Positions 7,682 to 27,084 of a stretch of 27,084 bases of DNA are shown here, piece by piece. The translations under genes were made by a program, and so were the position numbers. Positions within the stretch are counted from its first letter, which is position 1; each line of letters opens with the position of its first letter. The notes beneath the pieces were generated by a model. The model was not told where the DNA came from. It saw nothing but the letters and a program-made list of their open reading frames with translations, and did no database searches. Source of the stretch: a virus; the IMG/VR virus record IMGVR_UViG_3300006990_000126, positions 1 through 27,084 of that record. One strand, given 5' to 3'.

Positions 7682-8731
7682 ATGACCGCACTTACCAATC
7701 GTTATGTCACCCTCCAAAAAGAATCCGCATACGGTACAGAGCCAACAGCAGCCACCGCCAAACTGTTCTTAGGAGAGGTTGATGATGAGTCATTCTCCCA
7801 AAACTTCGACCTGTTGACCCGTCAAGACATCAGCCGCTACGGTGCTTCAAAGAGCGTAGCTGGTTTGAAATACTCCGAAGGAGATGTGAACTGCCCCTTG
7901 CAGCTTGACGACTTCAACTCATTCTGTTTGTTCTCTGCATTCGGTGTTGATACTTTCGCAAGTGGGGCAAGCCCAAAGACTCACACCTTAACAGAAGCAA
8001 CCGATGATTCACTATTCGCTTCATTCTGTATTCGTGTTGGTCGTGAAGACAAGGAACACACCTACTGCGGTATGGTTCTTGATTCGCTTTCATTGGCTGC
8101 TAACATCAATGAATACGTTATGATGACCTACTCTTTCGTTGGGTGTGGAGAATTAGCAGTCGCACCACTATCAACACCTGGTTCTGGTGTAGGAACTGAC
8201 CCACCAGCATTTAGCACCGTTGATGCACTACACTTCGCTAAGGCATTCGTGCGCTTTGAGGCTGCTGCCTCATCGAGCAACTTCTCCGCCTTGGTTAAGT
8301 CAATCTCACTTGACATTAGCCTTAACCGTGATACAGACAATGCAAACTCACTTGGAAACGCAACCTACGCAGTCGCACCTCCGCCTCAACTTCGTGAAAT
8401 CACAGGATCAATTGAGTTCAATACAAGCGGTGCTACTGCCGTTGATAACTCACCAACCTACGATGAACTACGAGGATTCCTTCTTCACAACGGCACAAAC
8501 GCTGCACCAGCAATTATGATTCGTCTTGAAGACGCAAGCGCAAATTACTTTGAAATTATGTTGCCAAAGGTTGTCTATGAAGCACCAGAACTCAACGTTT
8601 CTGGTCGAGACACCAGCACCCTTAGCGTTTCTTTCGTTGCTTTGTTTGATGAAACAGAAGGCAACATGGCTAAGGCAGTTATCGGTATGGATGGCATCAA
8701 CGCTGATACTGTTATGACAAAGGCAGCTTGA
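7682..8731 (+). CDS. Major tail tube protein
   Basis: A 349-residue protein that should polymerise as stacked hexamers to form the tail tube. The start (MTALTNRYVTLQKESAYGTE) carries the 'yvtlqkEs.yGt.p' opening typical of many long-tailed virus tube proteins. It is followed by beta-rich sequence with repeated acidic patches. Features include DDESFSQNFDLLTRQDISRY near residues 34-53, an insert around 160-175, and a C-terminal hydrophobic strand (DTSTLSVSFVALFDETEGNM). It is longer than minimal tube proteins (about 150-250 residues), which suggests an added outer domain. It follows the terminator gene and precedes the assembly chaperones and tape measure gene, the canonical order. No sheath gene precedes it. 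Confidence 0.7.
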   Translation: MTALTNRYVTLQKESAYGTEPTAATAKLFLGEVDDESFSQNFDLLTRQDISRYGASKSVAGLKYSEGDVNCPLQLDDFNSFCLFSAFGVDTFASGASPKTHTLTEATDDSLFASFCIRVGREDKEHTYCGMVLDSLSLAANINEYVMMTYSFVGCGELAVAPLSTPGSGVGTDPPAFSTVDALHFAKAFVRFEAAASSSNFSALVKSISLDISLNRDTDNANSLGNATYAVAPPPQLREITGSIEFNTSGATAVDNSPTYDELRGFLLHNGTNAAPAIMIRLEDASANYFEIMLPKVVYEAPELNVSGRDTSTLSVSFVALFDETEGNMAKAVIGMDGINADTVMTKAA

Positions 8732-8742
8732 GGTGAATAACA

Positions 8743-8937
8743 ATGCCCTTCGGAACAATAACCGTACCCGCCAAGGCAAGGGCTAAGGTCATCGAAGGAA
8801 GCCCTACTGCTGTCGAGGCGGAGCTTCAAACGTTCCTCCAAAGTCTTGATGCGAACACCCAGCTTCATTCATTTACGGCAACTCGTTCAAAGAACGACCA
8901 AGAGATCACAATAGTGCTGGGGTACGAGATACCCTGA
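8743..8937 (+). CDS. Small hypothetical tail-region protein
   Basis: A 64-residue protein (MPFGTITVPAKARAKVIEGS...) with a predicted helix in the middle (AVEAELQTFLQSLDA) flanked by strands, ending in EITIVLGYEIP. GAGGTGA at 8729-8735 gives a 7-base spacer to the ATG at 8743, a strong translation signal that overlaps the stop of the tube gene. It lies between the tube gene and the assembly chaperone gene. The family is not recognised. A minor tail or chaperone-accessory role is possible by position only. Confidence 0.6.
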   Translation: MPFGTITVPAKARAKVIEGSPTAVEAELQTFLQSLDANTQLHSFTATRSKNDQEITIVLGYEIP

Positions 8938-8954
8938 AGTTAAGTTAAGTTAAG
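8937..8954 (+). repeat. Tandem AAGTT pentamer repeat
   Basis: Three perfect copies of AAGTT followed by a partial AAG fill the gap between the small gene ending at 8937 and the assembly chaperone gene starting at 8969. The purine-rich continuation (AGAAGTGAAGAAAA) serves as its only visible ribosome-binding region. Confidence 0.75.
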
Positions 8955-8968
8955 AGAAGTGAAGAAAA

Positions 8969-9316
8969 ATGCCCGTCTTGAAAAAGGAAATAGAGCTAAA
9001 TGATGGCCGTAAGGTTTGGGTTCGCCAAGCCTCCGGTATGGACAAACTGAAAATCGAGGCCAAGCAAGGTCGAGTTATGCGAAAGTGCCGACACTTCGGT
9101 TCGGACTTAAGCAAATGGACTGAAGATCAAATGGATGAGTTCATGGAAATGTGCGAGCAAGAAGGCTGTGGCTTTGAGGCTCAGGTCGAAGCCTGGCTTC
9201 CTACTTGCCTTCTCGATGAAGAACTTGACCCGAACACCCTCACCTCGGACGAAATGGTTCGTATTGTCAATGTTATTCGAGGTGACGATAATGAGGGTGC
9301 AGTCCCTTTGGGCTGA
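8969..9316 (+). CDS. Tail assembly chaperone, G-type
   Basis: A 115-residue protein analogous to lambda gpG, which coats the tape measure protein and delivers tube subunits during tail assembly. The sequence starts with a beta segment (KKEIELNDGRKVWVRQAS), then a helical, acidic region with MDKLKIEAKQGR, WTEDQMDEFMEMCEQEG and LTSDEMVRIVNVIRGDDNEG. Its position directly before a frame-shifted second reading frame and the tape measure gene is characteristic of this chaperone family. The last codons (CCT TTG GGC TGA) contain a slippery heptamer. The upstream leader lacks a strong GGAGG motif. Family identity rests on context and secondary structure more than on conserved residues. Confidence 0.7.
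   Translation: MPVLKKEIELNDGRKVWVRQASGMDKLKIEAKQGRVMRKCRHFGSDLSKWTEDQMDEFMEMCEQEGCGFEAQVEAWLPTCLLDEELDPNTLTSDEMVRIVNVIRGDDNEGAVPLG
9304..9310 (+). promoter_or_regulatory. -1 ribosomal frameshift slippery heptamer (CCCTTTG)
   Basis: The G frame reads C CCT TTG here, an exact X XXY YYZ slippery heptamer. A -1 slip re-pairs the tRNAs on CCC TTT. The site lies one codon (GGC) before the G stop at 9314-9316. The -1 frame is open from 9295 to 9618 and encodes a T-like extension. Confidence 0.75.
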
Positions 9317-9618
9317 TATACAGGGCATCCCCGATCCTGTGTTCAACCTTCAAGGGGATTCTTCCCAGCGATTTGTTCGACCGATACAACACCAAAGGCG
9401 GATATTGGAAACTGGAGCTGGACTTGCTCGTAGCCAACGAGATAGCCGACCAACTCAACGAATCAGCTCAAGCATCAAAGGGCAAGAAAAAGAAGCGAGG
9501 TGGGGCTAAGAACGCCGTTGCTCGCAGAGATCAGCGAAGGCAACTGTTCACACCCGCCGAAACATCAAAACAACTCACGGCACTTTTGAATAATGAGAGG
9601 GGGATGAACGATGGTTAG
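9310..9618 (+). CDS. T-type extension of the tail assembly chaperone, made by -1 frameshift
   Basis: This frame supplies about 102 residues that would be joined to the first 114 residues of the G protein, giving a 216-residue GT product. In lambda, gpGT is made in small amounts and its T part recruits tail tube subunits. The sequence after the slip runs GLIYRASPILCSTFKGILPS, then a helical DLFDRYNTKGGYWKLELDLL, then a Lys/Arg-rich stretch (KGKKKKRGGAKNAVARRDQR) and a short C-terminal helix. There is no good independent start: the only early candidate, TTG at 9373, has no ribosome-binding site. The frame runs 8 bases into the tape measure gene. Expression as a fusion is therefore inferred from the heptamer, the hairpin, the open -1 frame and the position. 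Confidence 0.7.
   Translation, partial: GLIYRASPILCSTFKGILPSDLFDRYNTKGGYWKLELDLLVANEIADQLNESAQASKGKKKKRGGAKNAVARRDQRRQLFTPAETSKQLTALLNNERGMNDG
9318..9342 (+). promoter_or_regulatory. Hairpin downstream of the slippery site
   Basis: ACAGG (9320-9324) pairs with CCTGT (9336-9340). The stem extends by a G-U pair inside (9325/9335) and by U-G and A-U pairs outside (9319/9341, 9318/9342), with a loop of about 9 bases. The stem begins 7 bases after the heptamer, the usual distance for a frameshift-stimulating structure. Confidence 0.5.
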
Positions 9619-12445
9619 GCAGGGTGGCTCACGTGTCTTTTTCGACGTAGTGGGGCAGATGCAAGCTGCAAAGCTCATCTCCGACGCTGAAGAGATGTCC
9701 ACGGTGGTTCAAGCCATCGTCCTTGACGCATTCGACGGTATCAAAGGCTCTCTCGACGGTATTTTTGATTCGGTGGGTGCGGCGATTGAGGCTGTTCGAG
9801 AACCTGCTTTGGCTCTCGGTGAGTCAAGAGTCTATTTTGAAAAGTTCTTTGACTTCGAGGGCGTAAAGCAGTATGAAGAGTCAATCATTGACGTAGGACT
9901 TGCATTCGGTTTCACAGGAGCTGAAGCTCTGGATGCTGGCGCAAGGATGGCTCAATTGGGTGGTATCTTTGGTTCTGGTGCAGGTATTGAAGCTGGAACT
10001 CAAATGGGAACGGCATTCGGTATCATAGGTGGTATGGAAGCAGAAGAAGCCCAGAAACGTCTTATCTCAATTGCTCAACAGACGGGATTCTTATACGAAG
10101 GAATAGGAGAGGCCGCATTCAAGGCTGCTGATGCTGAAACTCAACGAGCGACTGTTATACGAAACTCGATGTATATGATGGATCAGCTAAACACCGTCGA
10201 ATCAAACTCGGTGGCTACGGTTCAACAAATCTCACAGGTGATGGATCAATTTGCATCGTCGGCAACCGCAGCGAACATGAGCATAGCAGAGCAAGCTGCA
10301 CTATCAGCCGTTCTGGTTGAGCAAGGTGAATCAGCGTCGAAAGCTGGCCGTGGTTTGAAACAAATGCTGGTTCGTATCGCCAGCGACACAGGAGGTGCTG
10401 CGGCTGCACTACATGAGTTCGGTGTGGCTACAACCGACATCAACGGCGACATGATAGGATTAACTCGTATCATGCAGCAGTTATCCGATAATGGCTTCCA
10501 CCAACTTGACTCAACTCAACAACAACAACTTGCGACTTCCGTTGCTGGTTCAAACCACGCTGAACGCTTTATGAAAATTATGACTCAACAAGAGCGAGTC
10601 ACAGAACTCACTACTCAAGCAGTCAATCGTGAAGTCGGTGCGCTTGAAGAATTAGAACGATTCACCCAATCAGCTACTTTTGGCGCAAATCAAATGACCG
10701 CTGCTCAAGAAACGCTGGCGGCTCAAATTGGTGAATCGCTTCTTCCAGCCATGACTGACGCTCAAATGGCGGCTTTCGGATTGAAGACATTCTTCCGTGA
10801 CGCTCTCGATGTCAATAGCGAATTGACAGGTGTTGCCGCAGGTTTGGATCAAGTCACCGCCTCTATGGTTGGGGGTGCGGCCAGAGGCTTGATTATGGCT
10901 CAAGGTGCGTACGATATCGCCGGTGGTGTGTTTGAAACATTCCTTAACATCCAATCTCTCATCATCTCCGTTCGAGTTTATCGAGCAATCATGAAGCAGA
11001 ACGTGGAGCTTCAAAACATGATAGCCCACGGTGTCACAGGACAAGCGGGAGCCATGAGGAACCTGCTTAATCTGCAACAAACCAGCCTTTCGACTGTCGG
11101 TAGAAGCGGTTTCATGACCGCCATGACTGTGAGCTTGGAAAAAGAAGCAACCTTCCTCGCAAACCACAAGGTTACGCTGATGAAAAAGGCTGAACGTATC
11201 AAGGCGGCTGAACTTGCAGCCGCTAACGCCGCCACCCAAGCCACCTCGCAAGAAGTCCAAGCGGAAGTCGCTCGAACCAGAGCAAAGGCTATGGCGGCAA
11301 GTATGACTCAACACGAAGCAGGGGTGGCTCAAACCAAGGCTCAGGCTGCTTTGACTGCCGCTATTCAAGAGCAAGAGTCCATTCGAGCGACAATCCTTCT
11401 CAAAGGCGAAGACGCTATGATTGGGAAAACGACAGCGAAAGAGGCTATGATAGCTTCCAATATCAAAGTAAATGACCTGCAAGAAGAGTTCACGGCTTTG
11501 ACAAACGTAGTGAATGTCCAACGACAATTAAGTGACGCAGATTCACGTCATATTGGAATCCTCAACCAAGAGACAAACGCTCGAATACGCAACATTAACG
11601 AAAAGCGTAAAGCATTCAAAGAAACACTCAACTTGCTTTTGGCTACGGGTCATTTAGACAAAGCTCAACATAAACAGATGATGACTACAATAAACAGTAT
11701 TAGTGCTGACAAAGCGAAGCAAGAATCAAACAAGTTCACCATGATGTCTTTCGTTACCCTACAAAAAGGAGTCCTCGGTGCTACATTCTCAATGCAGAGG
11801 ATGTCGGCAGCGACCAGTCTTGCTTCTATGGCTTTGATGATGTTTGGCGATAGCGAGGACGATATGCAAGCAAGCATGATCCTCATGACCGCTTCAATGC
11901 TTCCCGCTATTTTCAGTCTGCGAAGCTTCTCAATGGCAACTGACAGAGCCACCGCATCAACAGTCGCTTTCAGGTCGGTCACGACCCTTGGTGTGGGTCT
12001 TGTAGCTATCGGAGCTGCTCTTTTTGCTGCCAAGAAGTTGTTGAAAAATCACTCGGAAGACATGCAAGACATCACCACCGATACGGTAGGTGGGTTTGAA
12101 AACATTCAAACAGCCGCATCGGACTTCGCTTTTGAACTCGACAAGCCTGGTGGAGCTGCCGATTTGATGATGGACTTCGGGCGAACCACATCAGAGTCTA
12201 TGGACAAGGCCGAGAAGTCGGTCAAGGATTTCATGAGCGCACGTGAAGAATTGTTCTTCGGGTTTTCACCAAGTCGGATGAATCAAACGCTGTTCGAGCA
12301 ATTGGTCAATCAAGGCGTTGGCGAGCTATACTATCGAACCGAGGTCAATATCAATAACAACTTCTTCGGACTTACCGTTGATGAAATGGTGGCGCAGATC
12401 ACTCAAGACGTGAAAGAGCAAGTGGAAGTTATCGCGGGGTCTTGA
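9611..12445 (+). CDS. Tape measure protein
   Basis: A 944-residue protein that sets tail length and probably leaves the tail with the DNA. An N-terminal and middle region (about residues 60-390) resembles the TP901-type tape measure core: GFTGAEALDAGARMAQLGGIFG, LNTVESNSVATVQQISQVM, ALSAVLVEQGESASKAGRGL and SLLPAMTDAQ. A long Ala/Gln/Lys coiled coil lies at about 525-680. It is followed by hydrophobic helices near 735-775 (SLASMALMMF, SMILMTASMLPAIFS) and 790-811 (TLGVGLVAIGAALFAAKKLL). GAGAGGGGG at 9595-9603 precedes the ATG by 7 bases. At roughly 1.5 Angstrom per residue, a general rule for these proteins, the tail would be about 140 nm. Confidence 0.85.
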   Translation: MVRQGGSRVFFDVVGQMQAAKLISDAEEMSTVVQAIVLDAFDGIKGSLDGIFDSVGAAIEAVREPALALGESRVYFEKFFDFEGVKQYEESIIDVGLAFGFTGAEALDAGARMAQLGGIFGSGAGIEAGTQMGTAFGIIGGMEAEEAQKRLISIAQQTGFLYEGIGEAAFKAADAETQRATVIRNSMYMMDQLNTVESNSVATVQQISQVMDQFASSATAANMSIAEQAALSAVLVEQGESASKAGRGLKQMLVRIASDTGGAAAALHEFGVATTDINGDMIGLTRIMQQLSDNGFHQLDSTQQQQLATSVAGSNHAERFMKIMTQQERVTELTTQAVNREVGALEELERFTQSATFGANQMTAAQETLAAQIGESLLPAMTDAQMAAFGLKTFFRDALDVNSELTGVAAGLDQVTASMVGGAARGLIMAQGAYDIAGGVFETFLNIQSLIISVRVYRAIMKQNVELQNMIAHGVTGQAGAMRNLLNLQQTSLSTVGRSGFMTAMTVSLEKEATFLANHKVTLMKKAERIKAAELAAANAATQATSQEVQAEVARTRAKAMAASMTQHEAGVAQTKAQAALTAAIQEQESIRATILLKGEDAMIGKTTAKEAMIASNIKVNDLQEEFTALTNVVNVQRQLSDADSRHIGILNQETNARIRNINEKRKAFKETLNLLLATGHLDKAQHKQMMTTINSISADKAKQESNKFTMMSFVTLQKGVLGATFSMQRMSAATSLASMALMMFGDSEDDMQASMILMTASMLPAIFSLRSFSMATDRATASTVAFRSVTTLGVGLVAIGAALFAAKKLLKNHSEDMQDITTDTVGGFENIQTAASDFAFELDKPGGAADLMMDFGRTTSESMDKAEKSVKDFMSAREELFFGFSPSRMNQTLFEQLVNQGVGELYYRTEVNINNNFFGLTVDEMVAQITQDVKEQVEVIAGS

Positions 12446-12446
12446 C

Positions 12447-15400
12447 ATGAATGACATCAATCGCAGATTCACGGCTTGGCTGTCAGGCTACTACGAAGAC
12501 TTCCAATCCATGCGGGTGATCGGCGAGGGCGAGGACTACTCGGACGCTTCCTTCTTCACCAACCGTCGAGACTCCCATGCTGGCAACACAATGGCTGCTC
12601 AAGCCTTTAACAACTCTCGATTCACCTACGACTATCTTACCAGGTCTTTCGCCAACAAAGCTCCTTTGTCGCTTATCGGTTCAGCTGCACAGTCCGAGGC
12701 CGCATCACTTCACAACGAGGGGCCGAGTCAATGGCTGACCCACGATCCAAACCGACTAAGCTCATCGTTTTACGAAGGCCGAGCCAATTTGACATACCCC
12801 GATACGATAGGTGATGCAGCTTCTCTGCGAACAATCGCCTTCCCTCGAAGAGCTGACTACTCGCACTACGCTTCCGGCTGGGGAACGCATAACACCTATT
12901 GGGTTCGTCAAGGCGATACTGACGCAACGTATGAGCGAAGCGGCTTCGAGGTGGACTCTGCACATGGCTATCCGTTTGGAGCTTCCAGCACCAGAGGCTA
13001 CGGTAAGTTCGACCAAGGAGAACTTGACTCTGGCGTTCCTTCTGGGAGTCGGTACAGAAACCATAAAGTCATGATGAACTCAAGCCTCTGCGGTGTGTAC
13101 CTTGGCGAAACAGGCGATATAGCAGCCACCTCAAGCGGCATCGGCCTTCCTTACGCTTACCTGCACCCCATCAAGTCTCCATCAGGCAAACCGTTCTTCC
13201 GTCATTCAATGTCTCGTCGTATTGCTGATTGGGTTAGCGTTAGCAGCGTTGCTGACAACGGTTCAGGCTTGAAACGCTATACGATTGACCATACCGAGTT
13301 TGTGGACGAAGGCGCAGGTGGCGCAACTGACCAATGGTTTGCCTTGAACAAAAAGCTGAACACGGTTGTTGCGACGGGTCAAACGTATTCTTCGGGAGCA
13401 ACCAGCATCACCCTTCCATCCAGCACCAGCCCTGTTATCACAAACATTCTCAACCCAGCCACCGACCGTCATTTACCGGACAAATCCAGCGGAAGCCCAA
13501 CCCAGCAATTGTTCATTGAAGGGGCGACTCACACGTTTCAATCGTTTAACGTATCGTCTGGAGGTATCACCTTCAACAGCATTTCACCGGCTTTGAGTCA
13601 AACCTACATTCAACCCAGCGTCAAGTATTATACATGGGAAAATCAAGCGTCCGGCGACGACACAATCGTTGCGTACAACCTTTTGGGTTCGACCCCAAGC
13701 CCAACCCCCGTCTTTCAGTTTCGAGCAGATACCGACGATAGCCTCGGCTTCCCCTTAGTGTGCTTCAAAAGTGCAGGGAACGTTGTGACAACGACCAACG
13801 CTCGAACAACCAACGGTGAAACGGGTGTTCAAGATAGCCCCCATTTCACGGTGTCGAGCAACGCAGGTCTTGGCTACACCTATCACTTCATGACTCTCAA
13901 CTTGCAGTCGGGGCATGGTGGCTTCACCGCTGATCCAGAATTGAGTTTCGCTCAAGACCCGTTCTTTGAACTGGGGAACACCTACGGTCGCCTTGAGGTC
14001 GGCGACTATTTGAGCGAGTTCGATGTCTCGATGCCCGAAAAAATCACAGCGATTAGCAACGGCACGATTGACACCGATGGGTTGTTTGGCTCTGCTTCAG
14101 CAACACATATTCGACAAGCAACCTACGGCTCATACGCAGGGAGTCAAGGACGAGCCAAAGACGGTATGTTTGGATTTCAGCCTGTCATTGTTGGCGATAC
14201 CGAACTAAACGCCCAAGCAGACGGTGAACGCTTCACAATTCGTCTGGCGAATCAGTCATGGGGTATTCAAACAGCGGCCAAGCCGGTTCAGGTGTCTCCG
14301 AGCTACCTCTTGTCCATCGGCTACGACCAAACACAAACAGGGTTTGAACTCAACGAGCGAGGCAACATGGCTGACTCGAAGGCCGCAATCACGCACCTAT
14401 TCAACCCCGTGGTCGGCACAGGTTTGAACTCTGCTCGAAGCACCTTGTTCACCATGTTTGAGGAAGGAACAACAGGCAAGACCTCCTATACCGCTGACCA
14501 GCTTTGGTATGACCTCGACATCGTGGTGGACTTCGCAAACCAGCAATACTATGTTTTCGCCGAAGGAGCATATGTCTCGACAACCCCATTTAACCCAAAG
14601 CCAGGAGGCGGTCTTTGGACTGCGGCAGACTTCTATGGTTGGTCGCTGGGTGTGCAGCTACAAAGCGAGAAGGACACCAGCAGCACCGATACCTGGGCCA
14701 CCGCTGTCACGATGATTGACCGAGCTGGCTACATCTATGCTCTCCAAGATCGCATGACAAACGGTGCTATCGCTCCGACAATCCAGCAAGACGACGTGCT
14801 GATTGACAAGCTCAAAATCGTTTCAGTCGTTGATGGGATTAGCCAACTTGAAATCAGCATTCAAGACGACGACGACGAATTGAACCTGCCGCAGCTCGCC
14901 AGCGGTCGTCCTAACTGGAAGGTGCTTGTGTTCCGTGATAACGATTATCGCCCCATCCATTCGAGCATTGTTCAACAGGTTCAATGGAAGCAAAGCCACA
15001 CGAAGAAAACAAAGGAACTGGTATTGAAAGCGAAAGACTCGCTGGCTGAACTTGACTTTCAATTCCCGTACTTTGACATCGGACAGGAGAACGGCGCACC
15101 AAGTTTGGTCACCGCATACCGACGCTATGAGGTCACCAACTACGCTAACATCTTTCACTTCGGCGCAACCTCTCTGCTTAACCTCAACGCCTTCCTCGGA
15201 CTCGACGAGGACAGCAAAGGTTCGACGGGCGAATACCTGCCTCGATACGACCAACGGATGCGACTTCATTCTGGGCATCCTATCCAGATTTACTCCAATG
15301 AGAACACCAACGGCCCGAATTATGTTGAGGATGCGTGGGAAGTCAGTCGCTTGATTGACCACTTCGAGCCGGATGCAAACGACGCAACCAAGACCAGAGC

Positions 15401-18400
15401 CGTATTCACCTCGGATGCCATCAAATACGCCGAAAACCAAATCCCTGCCGGTGTCCAAGTCGCTATCAAGGGAACATGGCGCAACGTTGGAGACAACGAC
15501 GGATCGGACACCAGCGATAAATCAACACCCAACTTCGCTGAAAAAGGCTACTTGACTTCAAACGCCGGTGGTCAAAATCCAGAAATCACACCGCACAATG
15601 AGTATCGAGGGCTATTCACAGTCGAGCAAGCCCAAACCGTCACAACAGCCGACCTCATCTCTTCTGGGAACAGCATCAACGTGGCTGATACTTCCCTGTT
15701 CCCTGCTACGGGAACAATCAAGGTCGGAGGCACAGGAACAAGCCACTTCGGAGCTACACAATACACCTACACCTCAAAGAACTCAACGACCCTGTTCATT
15801 TCAGGCACACTTGGTCAAGCGTGGGGTGCTGGAACTGTTGTTCGAGAGACGACTTCTACCGACTACATCATCATTGACAAAGAATGGCAAGCGTCTTTGA
15901 TGATTGAAACCATTCGAGACAGCGGAGGGTTTCTTGAGTTCGACGTCGTAATCAGCCCTGACTTCCCATCATACCTGCGATACGAACTGATGGGTGGTTC
16001 AGGTGATGTGAACTGTGAATCAACGCTGGCAAAGAATGACCGCATGACTCCGACCATAGCACCAAGCGACGACCTTTTCCGCATTTACATCAAGCCAAAC
16101 GCAGCAGGTATCGCTCACGATGGGGATATGGCCGATCTTCCTTCAGAGGTCTATACGACAAGTGCTGTGAGCGCGAACACTAAGACGGGTGCGACATTCA
16201 AGACCACCAAGGCCGTTTCGAGCCTTTCTTCCGGCCTTCAAGCTGCGTTGCCTATCACGCTTGGTTCTGGGTCTGGTGGTCTTGCTGACGGCCTCGAATG
16301 TGACCTTGCCTACATGACCTTCCCCAAACAACAATCGAGGTCATTTTCGCTACGAAACACCGGTTCTTCTTACAACTATCGAAACGCCCACGCTCGATGG
16401 GCGCGTGATCTGCCGCAGTCGCTTTGGTTCCAGAAAACCTTCGGCGTTATCAGCGAATACCCTTACGGTGCTACGGCATGGAGAGGTGCTGGCTTCGTTG
16501 GAGCTGCACATGAAGACCTGGGGGCATCCTTCAACTCCGCATCGGACACGACGATAACACTTGGAGATACGACCAACTTCCCGTTTGGTGGCGTATGTGA
16601 GATATGGACAAATGACCCCAGCCCGTTTTCGCTCAACGGCGACCAAGCCGTGATGCTGACCTCGTTTGCTTATCGAGGCAAAACGGCAACCACGCTAACC
16701 AACGTCATGTTCGCTGATCCAAACAAAGGCGTTATCACGACCAGCGGTGCGGCAGGGAACAGGGTTGTTATCTGCCGAAACATTGACGGCGACTACAAGC
16801 ATTGTTTCGTGCTGTTTGCCGATATGCGAAACGACGGTTCAGCCGATGCTGACGGTGGAACTCGAAAGGAGGACTTCGGCCTTCTGCATCCAATCCAAGA
16901 AAACTACGACTTGAAGGTGGTTTGGGCCGACACCGGAAAAGACTTCGTGGACTTGAAGCTGGGTGCTGATGCCGATATATGGCAGTTAAGTGCAGAGAAT
17001 GATCCGGCAGGGACAATCCTTGGCGGAGGAACTGCTTCGCCCTGGTCTCAAGTCCCGACAGCCATCATGCTCGACTACGATGCCGCACCCATCTTGGTTG
17101 GCAAGCGTAGCAACAATACCGAGCTATCAACGCTCTATCACGATTGGCAAGACAAAGCAGGTGCATTCGTTGTCATTGACCTCTCGAAGTTCTTCAACCT
17201 GAACACCGAGGCCAACAACGGACGAATCGCTCAATCCGCTGGCGGCAACAAACAGCTCGGAGAATACCTCATCGAAGGCGCAGGTGCGCCCACGCTGATT
17301 GACAATTTCTATTATCACGCCTCGGCGACCTTCCAAAACTCCGCAGCTCCAATCCTTCAGCACCCCAACTCATACCGATGGGTCGTCGCCAAGACCACGC
17401 TTACACAGGACATCGTTTCATCCAATCCGACAGCAACAACAACAACAGAAACTCTCGCAGGTGCAACGCTGATTTTTGTTGACGACACCACCAATATGCC
17501 AGCAACAGGAACAAACTTTCTCATCGGCAACGACACCTTCAACTACACAGGAAAAGCAGGTACGATGGCGAGAGCGTTCCCCGCCAACCTCGGTGGTGAT
17601 GTCACAGCCAACGGCACGTTCACAACCACAGGCGGCGGCGGTTCGGGTGCGACAGGATCATACAAAGCCCAGTTCCTTCTCGATGCTGTCGCCTCTGGAT
17701 TCAATGCGGGTTCTGGGTGGGACACATTTTTAACAACATATCAATGGGTTGCGAACACAGGTCGAGCGAGAGGGACAGTACAAGCCTCCGGTGGGGTTCT
17801 TGTCTCTTCGTCCGTCACAATTGACATAAACGACTACTACGAAACAGCACCAAGCGTAACAATCACACGACCCAAGGCAGCTGCGGTAGGAGGCTTCGGG
17901 AGTCCAGCTTTCACGCTGAAAAGCACAGGCAATTTGAAGTTCGGTGAGGACTTCACAATCACCAACGCTGGTTCACTATACACTTCAGCTCCAACCTTCG
18001 TGTTCTCGACAAGCTCAACGGCAACGGCGGTGGCTACATTCACCACTACGCAACTTATCGGCGTTTCGGGTATCTCGGCGACTCACCCTGCTGGTACGGT
18101 CATTCAAACACAGTCCACGATACGAACACTTGATGTCGAGGACACAACAGACTTCCCAAGCAAGGTGGGTGTGGGCGGGTTCGCTGGTTTGAACACAGCC
18201 GGTATCATCGAGGCCAAAACAACTGATGCAGACGGAAATGATTTCGACATGAAGTATGTTTTCACTTATGACTCAAAGACAGCAACAACACTCGACAACA
18301 TCACTTATCGTCCTGTGAAGCAGGGTGAAACCGTTGATGTAGCCGCCGCTGGCCTTTGGTCTGGTGATACCTTCACGATTCAAGGTGTGCCTTCAATCAA

Positions 18401-21242
18401 GGCCGAAGGAAGCATTGTTCGTGCTTCTCTTGGATCGGCGTTTCCGATGGGCTTCATGTTGAAGCTTGAAGGCAAAGTCAAGAGTCCAGGGCAAGGCAAC
18501 TACTACGAGCATGACAAAATCCGTATTTACCAAACCTCTGCGCTGTATAACGACTGGTTCAAGCAACTGACCTTACCTGCCATCTCCGACATCAATAACG
18601 TGCCGATTATGCGAGACTTCAACGTGGACGGCAACGTGGCTGGGGCTGGCACAGTCGAGTCCTTCGGCAGCGTGACGGACGCTCAAAACAAGTCCATTTT
18701 CCAAACAATGAGAACGTTGGCTCAAGCTGCTGGTATCGGCGACGGCAGCTCGCTTCTAACGCTCAACTTCCAAATAGGCCGAGATAACCGCATGGAGTTC
18801 CGACCGACTTACAATTCTGGTATCAGTCTCGACAGGAACAATCTCAAGGTGTCCAACTTGAAGACCAGCAAGGCCGCATCGTTTAGCCACGTTCGAGTCC
18901 TGTTCAACGGTGGTTCGTCATTCGTGACCTTCCCTGCGCTCAACTACAAGACCAATGTTCGATTCAAGTTCGTTAGCGCAACATCGGTGTCCTCTTACGA
19001 ACAAGCCCTCCAAATCGCCAAGCACGAATACCAGAAGAAGAAAGACCCATCCTTCCAAGTTGAGGCAGAGGTTGTTCGAGAATCAAACGAAACTCAACGC
19101 GTAGGGCCGATGCTTGAGAACGCTCGCTACGGATATATCGCTGATCCAGCTCGCCAACTCACAGGGCCGCAGTCAGGGTATTGGACTGCTGAACATGGAG
19201 GTCTGCACTTCACAGGACAGAATAACGCACTTCACGGCAACATTCACGGCTTCGGCCTGTTAAGTCTGCTGAACTATCAGTCGTCCTCGGTTATTGGTGT
19301 CGGTATCGGTGGCTACACGGGAGGCAACAATTTCACTACGGCTTACGGCACAGGTCTTGCTCACTACCCAACCAACGACCTCTACAACATGTTCCCCTGG
19401 ACGCAGATGTATTATTGGTACGGAGCTAACTCGGTGTCTTACGCTGTTCAAATCGTGCATATTCCCAAGGGTATGCCGAAGGTCAGCGAGACAACCGGAG
19501 AGGAGCTGCGTGTTTTCATCGAGGATAAGGTCGCATCCACCCCATCAGCAGGTCGAGCGACCAACGACACGGACACGAAGAAGTTCCAGATATTCGTCGC
19601 TGACTACGACTTCGACGAGACTCAATCGTTAGGCCACACCCCAAAGCTGGCGGCAACGCAGAAGGGTATTGAGTCCATCACCACCAAAGGAAGCGGCTAC
19701 TTTGAGATGCCGATTCCTGCTTCGTATTGGTCGGCAGGGAATACGGCAGGTGCGAAAATGGTCGTATCGGTGAACGCAGAATACCTGAACGCTGTTGCTC
19801 GACACAAGACAGGTGACCAGTTCGGCGGCAATTTCAGTACAGCTCAAACAGGAGTTACGCCTGGGGCTGGTCAAACCCTGCCGACATTCACCAACGCTAA
19901 CGAATACTCAATTTTCCCTCTTGGCATTCGAGAATATCCAGAAATCGGTTCGTCAGCCGTTCAACGCACCGCTTACTACGCACCACGTATTCACATCACC
20001 GACGACATAAACTTCATTCCAGGCACTTACGCATCCTACAACGACCCCTACATTGACATTAACGAAACGCTGTTCATCACCAAAGTTGAATACTCGTACA
20101 CACCGAAAAGCCTTGACAAAACCAAAATACACCTTGAGCGTGAGTCTGGTCGCATCCCAGAAGGTCTTCAAGGCTACTTGGCTACGAACCCTCTCGAAGA
20201 CACGGGGGCAAGCGGTGGTGGCGTTGGCGGTGGCGGAGGAAGTCAGAACACCCCTCCCTCCGGCGGTGGCACAGGAGGACGAGGAAAACCCGACCCAGAC
20301 GAGTTCACCCCACCAACAAACGACCTTTACCCTCTCGGCTACACAGGAGGACAAAGAGGAACAGAATCAATCGGTGCAACGCCTCCGCTACGAGGCGGTG
20401 TTGGTGCTGATCTCGGTGGGGTTCAAGCTCCAATTCGTAGCGGCATTGACTTCATTCGCTTGAACAACGACACGGGCGTTCAGCAAATGGGCCAAGAAGG
20501 TGCGCTCATGAGTCCTTCGATGGGGTCGAACAATCTCAACGATGCCCTTATTCAGCGGTTGAACAACGCTATGAGCGTTGATAACCTGCTCCCATCAGGC
20601 ATTCAAGGCATCCCTGGTCAGCCTCGACCGACGAAGATACCCCAAAAGACGAGAGCGATTGAAGGGATCGACACGAAGTTCACTTCATCCGAAGGTCAAG
20701 CTGCACAAACCGACGATGGGTGGGTCTTGCCTGGTGCATCACAATTGACCGACAGCGAGGCCGTCACCAACCTTCAGCATTCGCTGGCTATGTCGGCTAC
20801 AACACCAATGGACTCATCACAGCCTGTCATCGGTATGACTGCCAGCGTTTCATGCGAAGTCCTCGCAGACTCGACGTTCTCGTTGACAACGACAATCACC
20901 TGCAAAGAAACCGGTGAGTCAATCACGCACACCCACGAAGAAGCCGTTACTGCCGCATCAAACGGTATCAGCCGAAAGAAAATCATGCTGATGCCTCAGC
21001 AATTCTTTGAGTCTGCTGGTGTCGAGGGTCGAAACCTGTCGGTGTCCATCGTGCGTAAGCCGAATCAAGGCAACGATAACGCCAATTTCTCAAGCGTCGT
21101 GATCCACGGCGTTCAATTCGAGAACGTGGTTCACAACAACCAAGGCGCACCTGCGACCGATAACTTGGCGGCATTCGCTGGAGCGGGCAAAGAAACCACT
21201 TCCGATGGCTTGAACCTAAACAGCAACAGCGACCCGTTGTGA
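12447..21242 (+). CDS. Giant tail hub / baseplate protein with adhesion modules
   Basis: A 2931-residue protein, the largest here, directly after the tape measure gene (1-base gap), where distal tail and hub proteins lie. Residues 1-560 are beta-rich and unrecognised. About 565-770 looks lectin/LamG-like (LWYDLDIVVDFANQQYYVFA near 684). About 780-880 resembles the first part of a gp27/gpD-type hub (IDKLKIVSVVDGISQLEISI, then WKVLVFRD). About 1066-1970 holds repeated small beta-modules. About 2080-2180 (FQTMRTLAQAAGIGDGSSLL, then IGRDNRMEFRPTYN) and 2535-2575 (LFITKVEYSYTPKSLDKTKI) look like the rest of the hub, so the hub appears split by insertions. A Gly/Pro-rich linker follows at about 2588-2650, then a beta C-terminal domain (about 2785-2890). 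No lytic enzyme motif was seen. Confidence 0.7.
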   Translation: MNDINRRFTAWLSGYYEDFQSMRVIGEGEDYSDASFFTNRRDSHAGNTMAAQAFNNSRFTYDYLTRSFANKAPLSLIGSAAQSEAASLHNEGPSQWLTHDPNRLSSSFYEGRANLTYPDTIGDAASLRTIAFPRRADYSHYASGWGTHNTYWVRQGDTDATYERSGFEVDSAHGYPFGASSTRGYGKFDQGELDSGVPSGSRYRNHKVMMNSSLCGVYLGETGDIAATSSGIGLPYAYLHPIKSPSGKPFFRHSMSRRIADWVSVSSVADNGSGLKRYTIDHTEFVDEGAGGATDQWFALNKKLNTVVATGQTYSSGATSITLPSSTSPVITNILNPATDRHLPDKSSGSPTQQLFIEGATHTFQSFNVSSGGITFNSISPALSQTYIQPSVKYYTWENQASGDDTIVAYNLLGSTPSPTPVFQFRADTDDSLGFPLVCFKSAGNVVTTTNARTTNGETGVQDSPHFTVSSNAGLGYTYHFMTLNLQSGHGGFTADPELSFAQDPFFELGNTYGRLEVGDYLSEFDVSMPEKITAISNGTIDTDGLFGSASATHIRQATYGSYAGSQGRAKDGMFGFQPVIVGDTELNAQADGERFTIRLANQSWGIQTAAKPVQVSPSYLLSIGYDQTQTGFELNERGNMADSKAAITHLFNPVVGTGLNSARSTLFTMFEEGTTGKTSYTADQLWYDLDIVVDFANQQYYVFAEGAYVSTTPFNPKPGGGLWTAADFYGWSLGVQLQSEKDTSSTDTWATAVTMIDRAGYIYALQDRMTNGAIAPTIQQDDVLIDKLKIVSVVDGISQLEISIQDDDDELNLPQLASGRPNWKVLVFRDNDYRPIHSSIVQQVQWKQSHTKKTKELVLKAKDSLAELDFQFPYFDIGQENGAPSLVTAYRRYEVTNYANIFHFGATSLLNLNAFLGLDEDSKGSTGEYLPRYDQRMRLHSGHPIQIYSNENTNGPNYVEDAWEVSRLIDHFEPDANDATKTRAVFTSDAIKYAENQIPAGVQVAIKGTWRNVGDNDGSDTSDKSTPNFAEKGYLTSNAGGQNPEITPHNEYRGLFTVEQAQTVTTADLISSGNSINVADTSLFPATGTIKVGGTGTSHFGATQYTYTSKNSTTLFISGTLGQAWGAGTVVRETTSTDYIIIDKEWQASLMIETIRDSGGFLEFDVVISPDFPSYLRYELMGGSGDVNCESTLAKNDRMTPTIAPSDDLFRIYIKPNAAGIAHDGDMADLPSEVYTTSAVSANTKTGATFKTTKAVSSLSSGLQAALPITLGSGSGGLADGLECDLAYMTFPKQQSRSFSLRNTGSSYNYRNAHARWARDLPQSLWFQKTFGVISEYPYGATAWRGAGFVGAAHEDLGASFNSASDTTITLGDTTNFPFGGVCEIWTNDPSPFSLNGDQAVMLTSFAYRGKTATTLTNVMFADPNKGVITTSGAAGNRVVICRNIDGDYKHCFVLFADMRNDGSADADGGTRKEDFGLLHPIQENYDLKVVWADTGKDFVDLKLGADADIWQLSAENDPAGTILGGGTASPWSQVPTAIMLDYDAAPILVGKRSNNTELSTLYHDWQDKAGAFVVIDLSKFFNLNTEANNGRIAQSAGGNKQLGEYLIEGAGAPTLIDNFYYHASATFQNSAAPILQHPNSYRWVVAKTTLTQDIVSSNPTATTTTETLAGATLIFVDDTTNMPATGTNFLIGNDTFNYTGKAGTMARAFPANLGGDVTANGTFTTTGGGGSGATGSYKAQFLLDAVASGFNAGSGWDTFLTTYQWVANTGRARGTVQASGGVLVSSSVTIDINDYYETAPSVTITRPKAAAVGGFGSPAFTLKSTGNLKFGEDFTITNAGSLYTSAPTFVFSTSSTATAVATFTTTQLIGVSGISATHPAGTVIQTQSTIRTLDVEDTTDFPSKVGVGGFAGLNTAGIIEAKTTDADGNDFDMKYVFTYDSKTATTLDNITYRPVKQGETVDVAAAGLWSGDTFTIQGVPSIKAEGSIVRASLGSAFPMGFMLKLEGKVKSPGQGNYYEHDKIRIYQTSALYNDWFKQLTLPAISDINNVPIMRDFNVDGNVAGAGTVESFGSVTDAQNKSIFQTMRTLAQAAGIGDGSSLLTLNFQIGRDNRMEFRPTYNSGISLDRNNLKVSNLKTSKAASFSHVRVLFNGGSSFVTFPALNYKTNVRFKFVSATSVSSYEQALQIAKHEYQKKKDPSFQVEAEVVRESNETQRVGPMLENARYGYIADPARQLTGPQSGYWTAEHGGLHFTGQNNALHGNIHGFGLLSLLNYQSSSVIGVGIGGYTGGNNFTTAYGTGLAHYPTNDLYNMFPWTQMYYWYGANSVSYAVQIVHIPKGMPKVSETTGEELRVFIEDKVASTPSAGRATNDTDTKKFQIFVADYDFDETQSLGHTPKLAATQKGIESITTKGSGYFEMPIPASYWSAGNTAGAKMVVSVNAEYLNAVARHKTGDQFGGNFSTAQTGVTPGAGQTLPTFTNANEYSIFPLGIREYPEIGSSAVQRTAYYAPRIHITDDINFIPGTYASYNDPYIDINETLFITKVEYSYTPKSLDKTKIHLERESGRIPEGLQGYLATNPLEDTGASGGGVGGGGGSQNTPPSGGGTGGRGKPDPDEFTPPTNDLYPLGYTGGQRGTESIGATPPLRGGVGADLGGVQAPIRSGIDFIRLNNDTGVQQMGQEGALMSPSMGSNNLNDALIQRLNNAMSVDNLLPSGIQGIPGQPRPTKIPQKTRAIEGIDTKFTSSEGQAAQTDDGWVLPGASQLTDSEAVTNLQHSLAMSATTPMDSSQPVIGMTASVSCEVLADSTFSLTTTITCKETGESITHTHEEAVTAASNGISRKKIMLMPQQFFESAGVEGRNLSVSIVRKPNQGNDNANFSSVVIHGVQFENVVHNNQGAPATDNLAAFAGAGKETTSDGLNLNSNSDPL
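15642..15848 (+). repeat. Hub beta-module, copy 1
   Basis: It encodes hub residues about 1066-1134. Key features are INVADTSLFPATGTIKVG, then YTYTSKNSTTL, ending GAGTVVRE. It shares the 'D-T-S/T-x-F-P' and 'Y-x-x-K-x-x-T-T-L' anchors with the other copies. Confidence 0.55.
16542..16769 (+). repeat. Hub beta-module, copy 2
   Basis: It encodes hub residues about 1366-1441. Key features are TTITLGDTTNFPFGGVCEI, then FAYRGKTATTLTNV and a Gly-rich end. The anchors match copies 1 and 4. Confidence 0.55.
17445..17621 (+). repeat. Hub beta-module, copy 3
   Basis: It encodes hub residues about 1667-1725. Key features are ATLIFVDDTTNMPATGTNFL, then FNYTGKAGTM and DVTANGTF. This copy has NMP in place of the xFP anchor. 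Confidence 0.5.
18054..18353 (+). repeat. Hub beta-module, copy 4, with an extra half-module in front
   Basis: The first part (18054-18107) encodes LIGVSGISATHPAGTVIQ, the end-strand motif also found in the connector gene. The full module follows: IRTLDVEDTTDFPSKVGVGG, then FTYDSKTATTLDNI and GETVDVAA (hub residues about 1870-1969). Confidence 0.55.
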
Positions 21243-21245
21243 TTA
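21240..21245. other. Zero-gap convergent gene junction
   Basis: The + strand hub stop TGA (21240-21242) abuts the - strand ERCC4 stop TAA (21243-21245, read as TTA on +). No intergenic terminator hairpin or T-run fits between them. Confidence 0.9.
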
Positions 21246-21950
21246 TTCGTACAAATCACGCAGAGATAGAATGGTTTGGGCCTTCTTTCGCCCGATGCCG
21301 TCAATTTCCATCAGCGACGATTGGGTGGTCTTGGCTCGAAGGAGCTTGGGGATGCTGCCGTATTTCTTGAGGATGGCTTCAGCGTGGATAGTGGTCAGCC
21401 CAGGCAAAGCGGCAAGGCAAGCGACCCGTGGATCGACCTTGGACGATAACTTGCGAACCTCATTCGGCACAGTCAAACGCTGACCGATAGCTTGTAGGTG
21501 ATGGACTTTGGCGATATACTCGACGAACTCATCCATCGAATTAAGCTGCATGAATTGGATTTTGGGGAAGCGGTGATACAGTTCTTGCTTGAAGGATTTA
21601 ATCACGTTATGCGCTCTGGCGTGGACTTGCCTTGGGTTCTGTCGAGGCGCACCAGGGCGTTGATACACGGTGATTTTGGTTCCGTACACAACGAGCATAG
21701 GGCGTTCAAACGCTTCGCACAGATCGGCGAGCTGGGCGTAAATCGTCCGAGAACGTCCGATGCCGAGGATGCTTTGCCACAGGTCGTTGATTTCTTTCGC
21801 TTCAATGCCGATGTCTCCCAGAATGTAGTCGGCTGCCTTTAGTCGCTTGACCTCGGCTTGACCGGCTGGGTTGTACTTACGATCTCCGAAAGCGACCAGC
21901 ATTTTGTTTATGACTTTGGGATTCTCCCTGTCGTCAATGACTACAACCAT
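21243..21950 (-). CDS. ERCC4-type (XPF/Hef-like) structure-specific nuclease with HhH domain
   Basis: A 235-residue endonuclease of the XPF/Mus81/Hef family, which cuts branched or flapped DNA at stalled forks and during recombination. Visible motifs are VVVIDDREN at residues 2-10, DYILGDIGIEAKEINDLWQS at 41-60, and RSRTIYAQLADL at 66-77. The usual GDx(n)ERKxxxD core is read here as GD...EAKEIND: catalytic Glu50, Lys52 and Asp56 remain, but Arg is replaced by Ala51. Two helix-hairpin-helix motifs follow: LAALPGLTTIHAEAILKKYG (179-198) and MEIDGIGRKKAQTIL (214-228), which bind DNA and drive dimerisation in the family. There is no helicase domain, as in the stand-alone archaeal forms. It is the last gene of the - strand block, 39 bases after the primase gene. 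Confidence 0.85.
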   Translation of the reverse strand: MVVVIDDRENPKVINKMLVAFGDRKYNPAGQAEVKRLKAADYILGDIGIEAKEINDLWQSILGIGRSRTIYAQLADLCEAFERPMLVVYGTKITVYQRPGAPRQNPRQVHARAHNVIKSFKQELYHRFPKIQFMQLNSMDEFVEYIAKVHHLQAIGQRLTVPNEVRKLSSKVDPRVACLAALPGLTTIHAEAILKKYGSIPKLLRAKTTQSSLMEIDGIGRKKAQTILSLRDLYE

Positions 21951-24468: not shown

Positions 24469-25992
24469 TTAAATATCGGCGACCAAGATTTCAGTTAGGA
24501 TCACCATTGAAGCAATCGAAACAGCGGCTCGAAGTGAGGATTTGACGACACTTGCTGCGTCCAGCACACCTTCTTCTCGAAGGTTGCCGAATCTTCTGAT
24601 CTTGGCGTTGAACCCGTAATCGTCGTTTCGCTCCGAAAGAGTCTCGACCAACCCATCAGCGTTGATGCCTACATTGAGAGCTAACTGACGAAGAGGTTCT
24701 TCAAGAGCGTTTGACAGCACTCTGGCGACTGGATAGTGTTCTTTGTCGAGGGAGTCGTAAAAGTCGCCAATCAGCCTTGAGACTTTAAATAGAGTCAAGC
24801 CACCACCGACGATAACACCTTCTTTGATGGCTGCTCTGGTGGTGTTCAAAGCGTCGTCCACACGTGCTTTCGTTTCTTTCATCTGTGTTGCGCTGGTTGC
24901 GCCCACACGGATCACACCGACACCGCCTTGTAGCTTCGCCAAACGCTCGTAAATCGCATCAGCCAGCTCCGTTTCGCCGCTAAGGTCTGCCTTCTTGATT
25001 TGTTCTTTCAATGTCTTAACTCGCTCGGTGATGTCGCCCTTCGCGCCAATCAGCCTGGTGTAGTTCTTGCCGATAACAGCTTTGCCGATGCTGCCGTCAC
25101 CAAGCAACGCTTCGTAGTCGAGCATAGCGTCGTCAAAGTGAAACGGCGGGACAACAACAGCACAGGCTCGCATCACGCCTCGCTGAACGTTCGTGATGAG
25201 CGTTTGCAGGGCTTCTCCTTCGATTCCCTTAGCGAGAACCAGCAACGCCTTCTGCTGACCAAGTGCGGCCTCCATAGCCGGTACGAGCTGGTCATTCTGC
25301 GTGATGATGTCTCTGGACAGGTGAACATGAACGTTGTCGAGAACAGACTCAAACGAACCCTGTTCATTGATGAGGTAAGGACTGGCGAAGCCAGAGTCAA
25401 TCTCGATGCCGTCCACGATGTCAAACGAATGTTTGGTCGTGTGGCTTTCCTCAACGGTGATGATGCCTTCGTAGTTCGTCTGCTGAAGCGCATCAGCAAT
25501 CAACGCTCCCAAGCCTGGGTCGTTGTTGGCGGCGACCGTAGCCACCTCGAAAATCTGTTGTTGCTTTTCTTCGTCGTTGTCTGGGTGGATAACCAGCTCG
25601 TCAATCCAAAGCTCCGACTGTTCGAGTAATGCGTCCATCGTGGCCTTGATGCTTAAGGGATTCAAGCCATCGTCGAGAAGCTTCAATCCTTCCTTGCAGA
25701 TTGCACGTGCGAGCAAGGTGGCTGTGGTTGTGCCGTCGCCGCCGTTGTCCTGTGCGTTAGCTGCGACCTCTTGGATTAGACGAACACCCATCATCCGATA
25801 GGGGTTCTCCGATTCGATGTCCTTCGTAATAGTCACACCGTCATTGATGGTCAGCGGCGAACCATACGGCCTTTCGAGCATGACATAACGAGCTGATGGG
25901 CCGAGCGTTGGTGCTACGGCATCAGCCACCAGGTCAATACCGGCCATCAAATGCTTTCGTGCTTCTTCTCCCTTAACTGCTATTTTCGTCAT
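24469..25992 (-). CDS. groEL: Group I chaperonin (GroEL/Hsp60-like)
   Basis: A 507-residue ATP-dependent folding chaperone. Clear GroEL motifs occur: TLGPSARYVMLERPYGSPLT (29-48), DGVTITKDI (51-59), GDGTTTATLLARAI (85-98) in the ATP site, the VDDALNTTRAAIKEG block and GGG at about 375-400, and VLDAASVVKSSLRAAVSIAS near the end. These mark it as group I, not an archaeal thermosome. It stops at TEILVADI, so the flexible Gly-Gly-Met tail of bacterial GroEL is missing and the protein is about 40 residues shorter than GroEL. The ATG at 25992 overlaps the GroES-like gene by 20 bases. Viral chaperonins may help fold capsid or very large tail proteins; the 2931-residue hub is an obvious client, by inference. 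Confidence 0.93.
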   Translation of the reverse strand: MTKIAVKGEEARKHLMAGIDLVADAVAPTLGPSARYVMLERPYGSPLTINDGVTITKDIESENPYRMMGVRLIQEVAANAQDNGGDGTTTATLLARAICKEGLKLLDDGLNPLSIKATMDALLEQSELWIDELVIHPDNDEEKQQQIFEVATVAANNDPGLGALIADALQQTNYEGIITVEESHTTKHSFDIVDGIEIDSGFASPYLINEQGSFESVLDNVHVHLSRDIITQNDQLVPAMEAALGQQKALLVLAKGIEGEALQTLITNVQRGVMRACAVVVPPFHFDDAMLDYEALLGDGSIGKAVIGKNYTRLIGAKGDITERVKTLKEQIKKADLSGETELADAIYERLAKLQGGVGVIRVGATSATQMKETKARVDDALNTTRAAIKEGVIVGGGLTLFKVSRLIGDFYDSLDKEHYPVARVLSNALEEPLRQLALNVGINADGLVETLSERNDDYGFNAKIRRFGNLREEGVLDAASVVKSSLRAAVSIASMVILTEILVADI

Positions 25993-26245
25993 GTTCCAAC
26001 ACCCCTATGATTTGTTCTATGTCAATGATGAATTGTCCCTCAACGGGTGTATCAACACTATGTCCTACGAAAAGAACACTATCGCCCTTGCTCACATGAC
26101 CGTTCATTTTCAAATGCTCGGACAGGTTCAACACCTTACCGATGAATGTCTTTTCATTTTCATTCTTCACGAAAAGACCGCTTGTTCGAGTGGCCCTCTC
26201 GATAAGTTCAATCAGCAAGCTGCTTCCAATAGGTCGTATTTTCAT
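25973..26245 (-). CDS. groES: GroES-like co-chaperonin
   Basis: A 90-residue lid protein for the chaperonin encoded next. It starts MKIRPIGSSLLIELIERATR. The mobile-loop region is ASGLFV-like (RTSGLFVKNENEKTFIGKVL, residues about 20-39), followed by the second barrel half with GDSVLFVGHSVDTPVEGQFI and IDIEQIIGVLE, as in Cpn10 proteins. It ends in an acidic EHDENSS tail. It starts as ATGA overlapping the methyltransferase stop, and GAGGG 7 bases upstream favours this ATG over the one at 26251. It overlaps the groEL-like gene by 20 bases, in the usual groES-groEL order. Confidence 0.85.
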   Translation of the reverse strand: MKIRPIGSSLLIELIERATRTSGLFVKNENEKTFIGKVLNLSEHLKMNGHVSKGDSVLFVGHSVDTPVEGQFIIDIEQIIGVLEHDENSS

Positions 26246-27084
26246 AACCATTCCCTCTCATCATTCAAGGTTTCTTTCTGTATTTGTGAAATGGATTCAA
26301 CTCGATTCGGGATGAGTTCTGCGTATTCCTCATTCAGCTCACACAGGATGGCATCTCGACCGTGTTTGATGGCGACCCCTGCCGTAGTCCCAGAGCCGCC
26401 GAAGGGGTCGAACACCACCGCAGGTACAATGTCGGCGTTGCATTCGCACGTCGCTTCCCAACCAACCGTGACCGCTTTCTTTGACATAGCGTCGAGCGTT
26501 CTCTGCTTGACCGTTCTGGGTGTCTGCTCGCTCATGGTGGTCGGTTTGTAGTCCTTCAAATCCTTGCCTTCGTATGTGCCTTGAGCGTTAGCCCCAGCGA
26601 CTTTCATGGCCTCTGTTATCCCCATGTCCTTCTTCTCGACGACACGGACATACGGTACGCCGCAGTCAGCGCAGCATCCGTGGGCTGAAGAACCAGCGAG
26701 GATGCAAGGCTCAATGAGTTCGGGTGGATAGACGGCGAAATGAGCCTCCCTGAACGGCTTGGGGTTCACCGTCCAAACGCTACGCTTGTTTCGCTTACCG
26801 GAGAACTCACGCATCCCGATTGGTCGAATGTGAACTTGATCTGTTTCGAGAAGTGTTTCATTCTTGATGCCGCCAAACGGTTGCGTGTATCGAGCTGCGG
26901 TTTTCTCGTGATCCGCGCTGGCTTCTTTGATGGCTTCGTGGTCAAAGAAATAAGAGTCTTTCTTGCTCAACAAAAACAGGTATTCATGGCTCTTAGTGCA
27001 TCGGTCTTTGACAGGTTCAGGCATACAGTTTGGTTTGGCCCAAATGATGTCTTGTCGCAGATACCACCCAGCTTCTTGCAGAGC
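26242..27084 (-). CDS. DNA methyltransferase, N4-cytosine/N6-adenine beta class (partial)
   Basis: The C-terminal 280 residues of a DNA amino-methyltransferase; the frame stays open to the window edge, so the N-terminal part with the catalytic (D/S/N)PPY motif lies outside. Visible family text includes EAGWYLRQDIIWAKPNC, EPVKDRCTKSHEYLFLLSK, RSVWTVNPKPFREAHFAVYP and the S-adenosylmethionine site FDPFGGSGTT (residues about 225-234 of the visible part), followed by GRDAILCELNEEYAELI. Motif I after the target region is the beta-class order. Between them is a Cys-rich insert (HGCCADCG...ATCECN), a probable zinc-binding element common in phage enzymes of this type. It could protect viral DNA from host restriction; no partner nuclease is visible. 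Confidence 0.9.
   Translation of the reverse strand, partial: ALQEAGWYLRQDIIWAKPNCMPEPVKDRCTKSHEYLFLLSKKDSYFFDHEAIKEASADHEKTAARYTQPFGGIKNETLLETDQVHIRPIGMREFSGKRNKRSVWTVNPKPFREAHFAVYPPELIEPCILAGSSAHGCCADCGVPYVRVVEKKDMGITEAMKVAGANAQGTYEGKDLKDYKPTTMSEQTPRTVKQRTLDAMSKKAVTVGWEATCECNADIVPAVVFDPFGGSGTTAGVAIKHGRDAILCELNEEYAELIPNRVESISQIQKETLNDEREWL
26253..26257 (-). promoter_or_regulatory. Ribosome-binding site deciding the GroES-like start
   Basis: GAGGG on the - strand is 7 bases from the ATG at 26245 but only 1 base from the ATG at 26251, so the shorter 90-residue product is preferred. The site lies inside the end of the methyltransferase gene. Confidence 0.6.

Follow-up and report, generated by a model that had tools for sequence, protein, structure and literature searches.

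In a marine virus from a little-studied group, two overlapping open reading frames, G and T, are very probably expressed by lambda-type -1 programmed ribosomal frameshifting, which would make G and a 216-aa fusion protein, GT. The analysis covered a stretch of 27,084 bases (positions 1-27,084 of the IMG/VR virus record IMGVR_UViG_3300006990_000126), referred to here as the window. The anatomy of the G/T junction, its conservation and the coding of the -1 frame were established directly, and we infer the slip itself and its rate. The initial annotation of the window had proposed a slip of this type at a pyrimidine heptamer, and this proposal drew support from the -1 frame, the heptamer and the codon bias seen in related viruses.

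Organisation of the G/T junction

G, the 0-frame product of 115 aa, lies on the plus strand at 8969-9316. Near its end is the slippery heptamer C CCT TTG (9304-9310), an X XXY YYZ site identified by sequence and conservation as the putative site of the -1 shift; it is in phase with G (C-CCT-TTG) and is followed by GGC (9311-9313) and the stop codon of G, TGA (9314-9316). ORF T, in the -1 frame of the same strand (9295-9618), is open from 9295 to 9615 and ends with a stop codon at 9616-9618, and the part of it expected to be translated, beginning GLIYR, spans 9310-9615. The deduced GT fusion (plus strand, 8969-9618) would thus have 114 residues of G, up to the L at 9308-9310, and 102 residues of T from 9310 onwards. 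The initial annotation had described an in-frame heptamer one codon before the G stop, a -1 frame open from 9295 and the lack of a credible start for T, and all three observations were confirmed. Past the heptamer, the only start-like codons of T in the window are TTG 9373, TTG 9424, TTG 9586 and ATG 9604, all of which sit inside or beyond its conserved block. A start at TTG 9373 would drop most of that block (P..LC..FKG.LPS), and ATG 9604, the first ATG, is four codons before the T stop. Gene callers will either overlook T or report a truncated ORF in its place, and the annotation is corrected here.

The two ORFs are flanked by the tail tube gene (plus strand, 7682-8731; PF18906, E 9e-21), with a 64-aa ORF (8743-8937) as the sole ORF between it and G, and by the tape measure gene (plus strand, 9611-12445, 944 aa; PF10145, E 3e-19; TIGR01760, E 1e-18), whose start overlaps the end of T. 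This order places G and T at the classical location of the tail assembly chaperone pair. A tandem repeat of AAGTT (plus strand, 8936-8965) directly precedes the G start, and the tape measure gene is followed by a single ORF of 2931 aa (plus strand, 12447-21242), each third of which was without a Pfam match. Across the 17 genes of the window, in-phase XXXYYYZ occurred 14 times in 8184 codon steps (0.17% per codon), and in-phase CCCTTT occurred once, at the G/T junction.

According to the proposed mechanism, ribosomes translating G would reach C CCU UUG, and most would go on to produce G by terminating at UGA 9314-9316. In a minority, a slip back by one base, in which tRNA-Pro re-pairs with CCC in place of CCU and tRNA-Leu with UUU in place of UUG, would cause base 9310 to be read twice, and translation would continue as GLIYR into T. 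The predicted junction of the resulting GT reads EGAVPL-GLIYR. By analogy with lambda, G would coat the tape measure protein and GT would additionally recruit the tail tube protein, in which case the slip would set the ratio of G to GT for tail assembly.

Conservation of the slip site and alternative explanations

IMG/VR was searched with the G protein and with the T protein, and not with the DNA of the heptamer; the T query began with two heptamer-encoded residues and one G pattern ended beside the heptamer. The G search gave 43 viral loci, and in all 39 that were long enough to cross the junction an in-phase CCCTTT and an open -1 frame were present. When T and G were each used by themselves in profile searches, the set grew to 100 distinct junctions from many metagenomes, which form 67 clusters if G is grouped at 85% nucleotide identity. 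T was in the -1 frame in every one of the 100, a closed frame being found in no relative, and CCCTTT followed by G, A or T was present in the same phase in 94. The other six keep a shorter slip site, the tetramer T_TTT, and all belong to one nested subclade reading CCCTTTT; outside this subclade the six bases CCCTTT are kept in 52 of 52 clusters.

Since the clusters are not independent, the following codon figures are to be read relative to the other columns of the alignment and not as probabilities: the slip-site proline was encoded by CCT in all 65 clusters that have it, whereas the share of CCT elsewhere in G was 34.5%, with a codon homozygosity of 1.00 in that column and at most 0.71 in other near-invariant columns of G; the preceding codon ended in C in 61 of the 67 clusters, where about 13% would be expected from Val and Ile codons, and stood for various residues (Val, Ile, Thr, Pro, Ala, Cys); and the A-site codon was TTG, TTT or TTA and never CTN. 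The distance from the heptamer to the G stop, which the initial annotation had put forward for comparison along with the heptamer and the frame, was not conserved (0, 3, 6, 9, 12 or 15 nt across clusters); it is instead the distance from the slip site to the FKG motif of T that is fixed, at 16 codons in 67 of 67 clusters. Between the G stop and FKG, we counted 1084, 1100 and 4872 differences at -1-frame codon positions 1, 2 and 3, respectively. This pattern of substitutions downstream of the G stop indicates coding in the -1 frame and points to translation of T through the junction. In the structure model of T a helix is predicted from residue 2, at the shift point, with low confidence in the C-terminal half.

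The six exceptions (L180, L184, L188, L189, L205 and L208) carry ACCTTTT, GCCTTTT, GCATTTT or ACATTTT at the slip site. In a tree built from G and T together, they were found at four places within one clade, the other members of which read CCCTTTT, and this is the sole subclade in which the heptamer decays. A slip by a single tRNA, either by the P-site tRNA-Pro from CCU to CCC in the window or on U_UUU in the TTTT subclade, would account for exceptions that have lost CCC and keep T_TTT, and in E. coli both of the tetramers concerned, U_UU.U and C_CC.U, are prone to shift (PMC4066793). This is a variant of the two-tRNA slip and not exclusive of it, and we consider it unlikely, since C_CC.U alone needs less than the whole CCCTTT kept in every cluster outside the subclade.

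In most of the CCCTTTT subclade, codon 6 of T is an ATG that overlaps the stop of G (TGATG or TAATG), which makes reinitiation on T a live alternative in these viruses. Such an ATG was observed in L026 (5333-5360), L166, L167, L173, L177, L180, L184, L188, L189, L200, L205, L209 and L212, mainly members of this subclade. Translation of T on its own, either from an internal -1-frame start or through reinitiation after termination at the G stop, with no fusion being made, is nonetheless very unlikely. L208 (A CAT TTT C), which has also lost CCC, and L182 have no stop-overlapping ATG, coding constraint on the -1 frame is also seen upstream of the candidate starts, and neither the fixed spacing between slip site and FKG nor the position of the start-like codons in the window fits a separate start. 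For the lineage itself we tentatively suggest that, once the A-site codon had become UUU, a two-tRNA heptamer (C CCU UUU) may have been cut back several times to a tetramer slipped on by one tRNA (U_UUU), alongside the stop-overlapping AUG, although the odds are somewhat against this history. If true, it would mean that nature has supplied a graded set of sites for archaeal ribosomes, running from a slip on a heptamer to a slip on a tetramer or to coupled reinitiation.

Transcriptional slippage, in which RNA polymerase slips at homopolymers and produces mixed mRNAs, occurs in some genes of bacteria and viruses that contain long runs of A or T. We regard it as extremely improbable at this junction, where the runs are only 3 bases long and where the conserved in-phase X XXY YYZ pattern is not something that slippage requires. 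A sequencing error or a decayed gene, to which the split reading frame and nothing further points, has a negligible probability, as it is contradicted by the relatives, in which 100 distinct junctions, drawn from many metagenomes, show the same split together with a conserved T. Ribosomal frameshifting at the heptamer is thus the explanation we favour; the points against it are that the heptamer is not of top efficiency in E. coli, that a family-wide stimulator is lacking and that no safe match to a chaperone was obtained.

Candidate stimulators, protein families and host

A downstream stem had been proposed in the initial annotation as part of the signal. Folding gave a candidate hairpin at 9318-9342 (plus strand) with a 7-bp stem (9318-9324/9336-9342), separated from the heptamer by a spacer of 7 nt (9311-9317). 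Structures 5-9 nt downstream of such heptamers are common in -1 frameshift signals, though not obligatory. The 57-nt fold from 9304 had an MFE of -22.7 kcal/mol and a z of -2.5, but its outer part pairs the heptamer with a downstream CAAGGGG; the 30-nt hairpin alone had an MFE of -8.4 and a z of -2.1. We set the pairing with CAAGGGG aside, because it is unavailable when the ribosome sits on the heptamer, and the encoded FKG is conserved in any case. Among nine near relatives, the window included, seven had a hairpin with z <= -1.8 in a shifted register, two of them very strong. Stem covariation in this near clade amounted to one double change, with no excess over shuffles, and sliding folds of 55 nt and 36 nt across the family gave no excess of structure at the expected place. 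The stem therefore exists in the window and recurs in the nearest clade, but its pairing is shifted there and is not conserved beyond.

Upstream, a Shine-Dalgarno-like GAGGG (plus strand, 9293-9297) lies 6 nt before the heptamer; stimulators of this kind are of bacterial type and are not obligatory. Such sequences were enriched in comparison with other segments of G, but the enrichment was gone against a synonymous-codon null, which predicted 62.7 clusters where 65 of 67 were observed, and 29.7 5-nt matches where 29 were observed. As the counts equal the null there is no sign of selection for this element, and the importance of GAGGG is doubtful. Conservation thus extends through the whole family for the heptamer but not for the stimulators.

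The structure of G was modelled by AF2 with a pLDDT of 94. A Foldseek search with this model gave one unnamed close viral relative (43% identity), and its best-named matches were tail assembly chaperones at weak E-values of 0.04-0.4; the HK97 chaperone 2ob9 was second among the PDB matches, with a weak E of 0.46. One of 32 family members matched phrog_344, a tail assembly chaperone, again weakly (E 0.04). Neither by profile nor against solved structures was a named chaperone family assigned to G or T at a safe E-value, and the fold search with T returned only one unnamed relative of 85 aa. We infer the chaperone role of G and GT mainly from gene order and the frameshift.

The host is quite likely archaeal, a matter on which the initial annotation had made the interest of the frameshift conditional. 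An archaeal-type nuclease with ERCC4 and helix-hairpin-helix domains is encoded on the minus strand at 21243-21950. ERCC4 was found in 17 of 23 related virus records as well as in the window, and had no match in INPHARED phages; in a control with 14 genomes, the model was positive only in the 4 archaea. ERCC4 has been reported for nearly all magroviruses (PMC10160649). The best matches of the PolB of a close relative, among those listed, were haloviruses at 22-24% identity, and DnaB was not found, which was also counted toward an archaeal host. Counted against it were the absence of PCNA and small primase from 12 related records and of TFB/TFIIB from 23, contigs that are smaller than magrovirus genomes, and a window GroEL that is nearest to bacteriophage GroELs (40%). 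The window encodes GroEL (507 aa) and a short, divergent GroES (92 aa) in overlapping genes on the minus strand (24469-26251). GroEL-like genes occur in only 4 of 12 related records; GroEL/GroES, which were counted toward an archaeal host, have been reported for the magrovirus family Aoguangviridae (PMC10768690). No relatives of G or of PolB were found in GTDB genomes.

MCM was considered as host evidence and rejected, because the MCM-like matches are AAA_5 proteins beside DUF7192 and resemble a CobS/CobT-type pair, which is known in tailed viruses (PMC8651126). The AAA_5 ATPase adjoins a DUF7192 protein in L216 (90-3393) and L217 (73-3149). No tRNA genes were found in the window; among three relatives (L213, L214 and L215), tRNA-Ala(TGC) was present in two and tRNA-Pro(TGG) in one, around 1501-1576, and these are not decisive for the host.

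Comparison with known systems

Xu, Hendrix and Duda reportedly described the lambda G/GT chaperones and their -1 frameshift at G GGA AAG in 2004. The pair described here shares with them the two overlapping ORFs between the tail tube and tape measure genes, a T in the -1 frame without its own start, and an X XXY YYZ site that is in phase with G and close to its end, and by analogy a low-ratio fusion is expected. The heptamer differs, being the unusual C CCU UUG, all-pyrimidine up to the last base, and neither G nor T showed sequence similarity to lambda or to any other phage in INPHARED (no relatives among 50,697 records). In lambda, G and GT are needed at a ratio of about 30:1, with G binding the tape measure and T the tail tube protein (PMC5009743).

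The mechanism is already known, archaeal viruses included (PMC8211752, PMC7911831). For the haloarchaeal viruses HVTV-1, HCTV-1/2/5 and Hardycor1 (at G GGA AAT) a -1 frameshift was inferred in the same gene pair, and for HSTV-2 a +1 shift is given (PMC8211752, PMC7911831). Our virus has the probable -1 frameshift of the pair in common with haloarchaeal tailed viruses, and the PolB of its family is nearest, among the matches listed, to that of haloviruses, whereas the heptamer differs from that of Hardycor1, the lineage is not the haloarchaeal one, and conservation extends here over 67 clusters. Magroviruses (Aoguangviridae and Apasviridae) are viruses of Poseidoniales (PMC10768690, PMC12999244, PMC10160649). 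The likeness to them is one of gene content: PolB, clamp loader, ERCC4 nuclease, GroEL and GroES are shared, as is the arrangement of head/tail and replication genes in opposed clusters. Magrovirus genomes measure 90-110 kb, in contrast to about 60-74 kb for the longest related contigs here; the related records also differ in the missing PCNA, small primase and TFB noted above.

In an E. coli survey, C_CC.U_UU.G,.A and.U were among the heptamers that shifted by >0.10% without stimulators, C_CC.U_UU.G lying outside the most efficient ones (PMC4066793). Together with U_UU.U, these shift-prone sequences are the variants found here; the survey figures come from bacterial ribosomes, and not from archaea or from this virus. 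A full-text literature search, with most subscription papers outside its reach, returned no report of a tail gene with CCCUUUG frameshifting, an absence that is not proof of novelty. What we regard as new, besides the lineage itself, is that such a virus carries a C CCU UUR/U site, that this site is so deeply conserved and that it decays in a natural series from heptamer to tetramer. Archaeal frameshifting is thinly documented, a 2021 review having counted a single demonstrated -1 case besides a few in haloviruses that were inferred (PMC8211752), and the heptamer described here is conserved over 67 clusters of probably archaeal marine viruses. The natural variants of its last base and the natural losses of its first three bases are ready-made alleles for testing what governs slipping on archaeal ribosomes.
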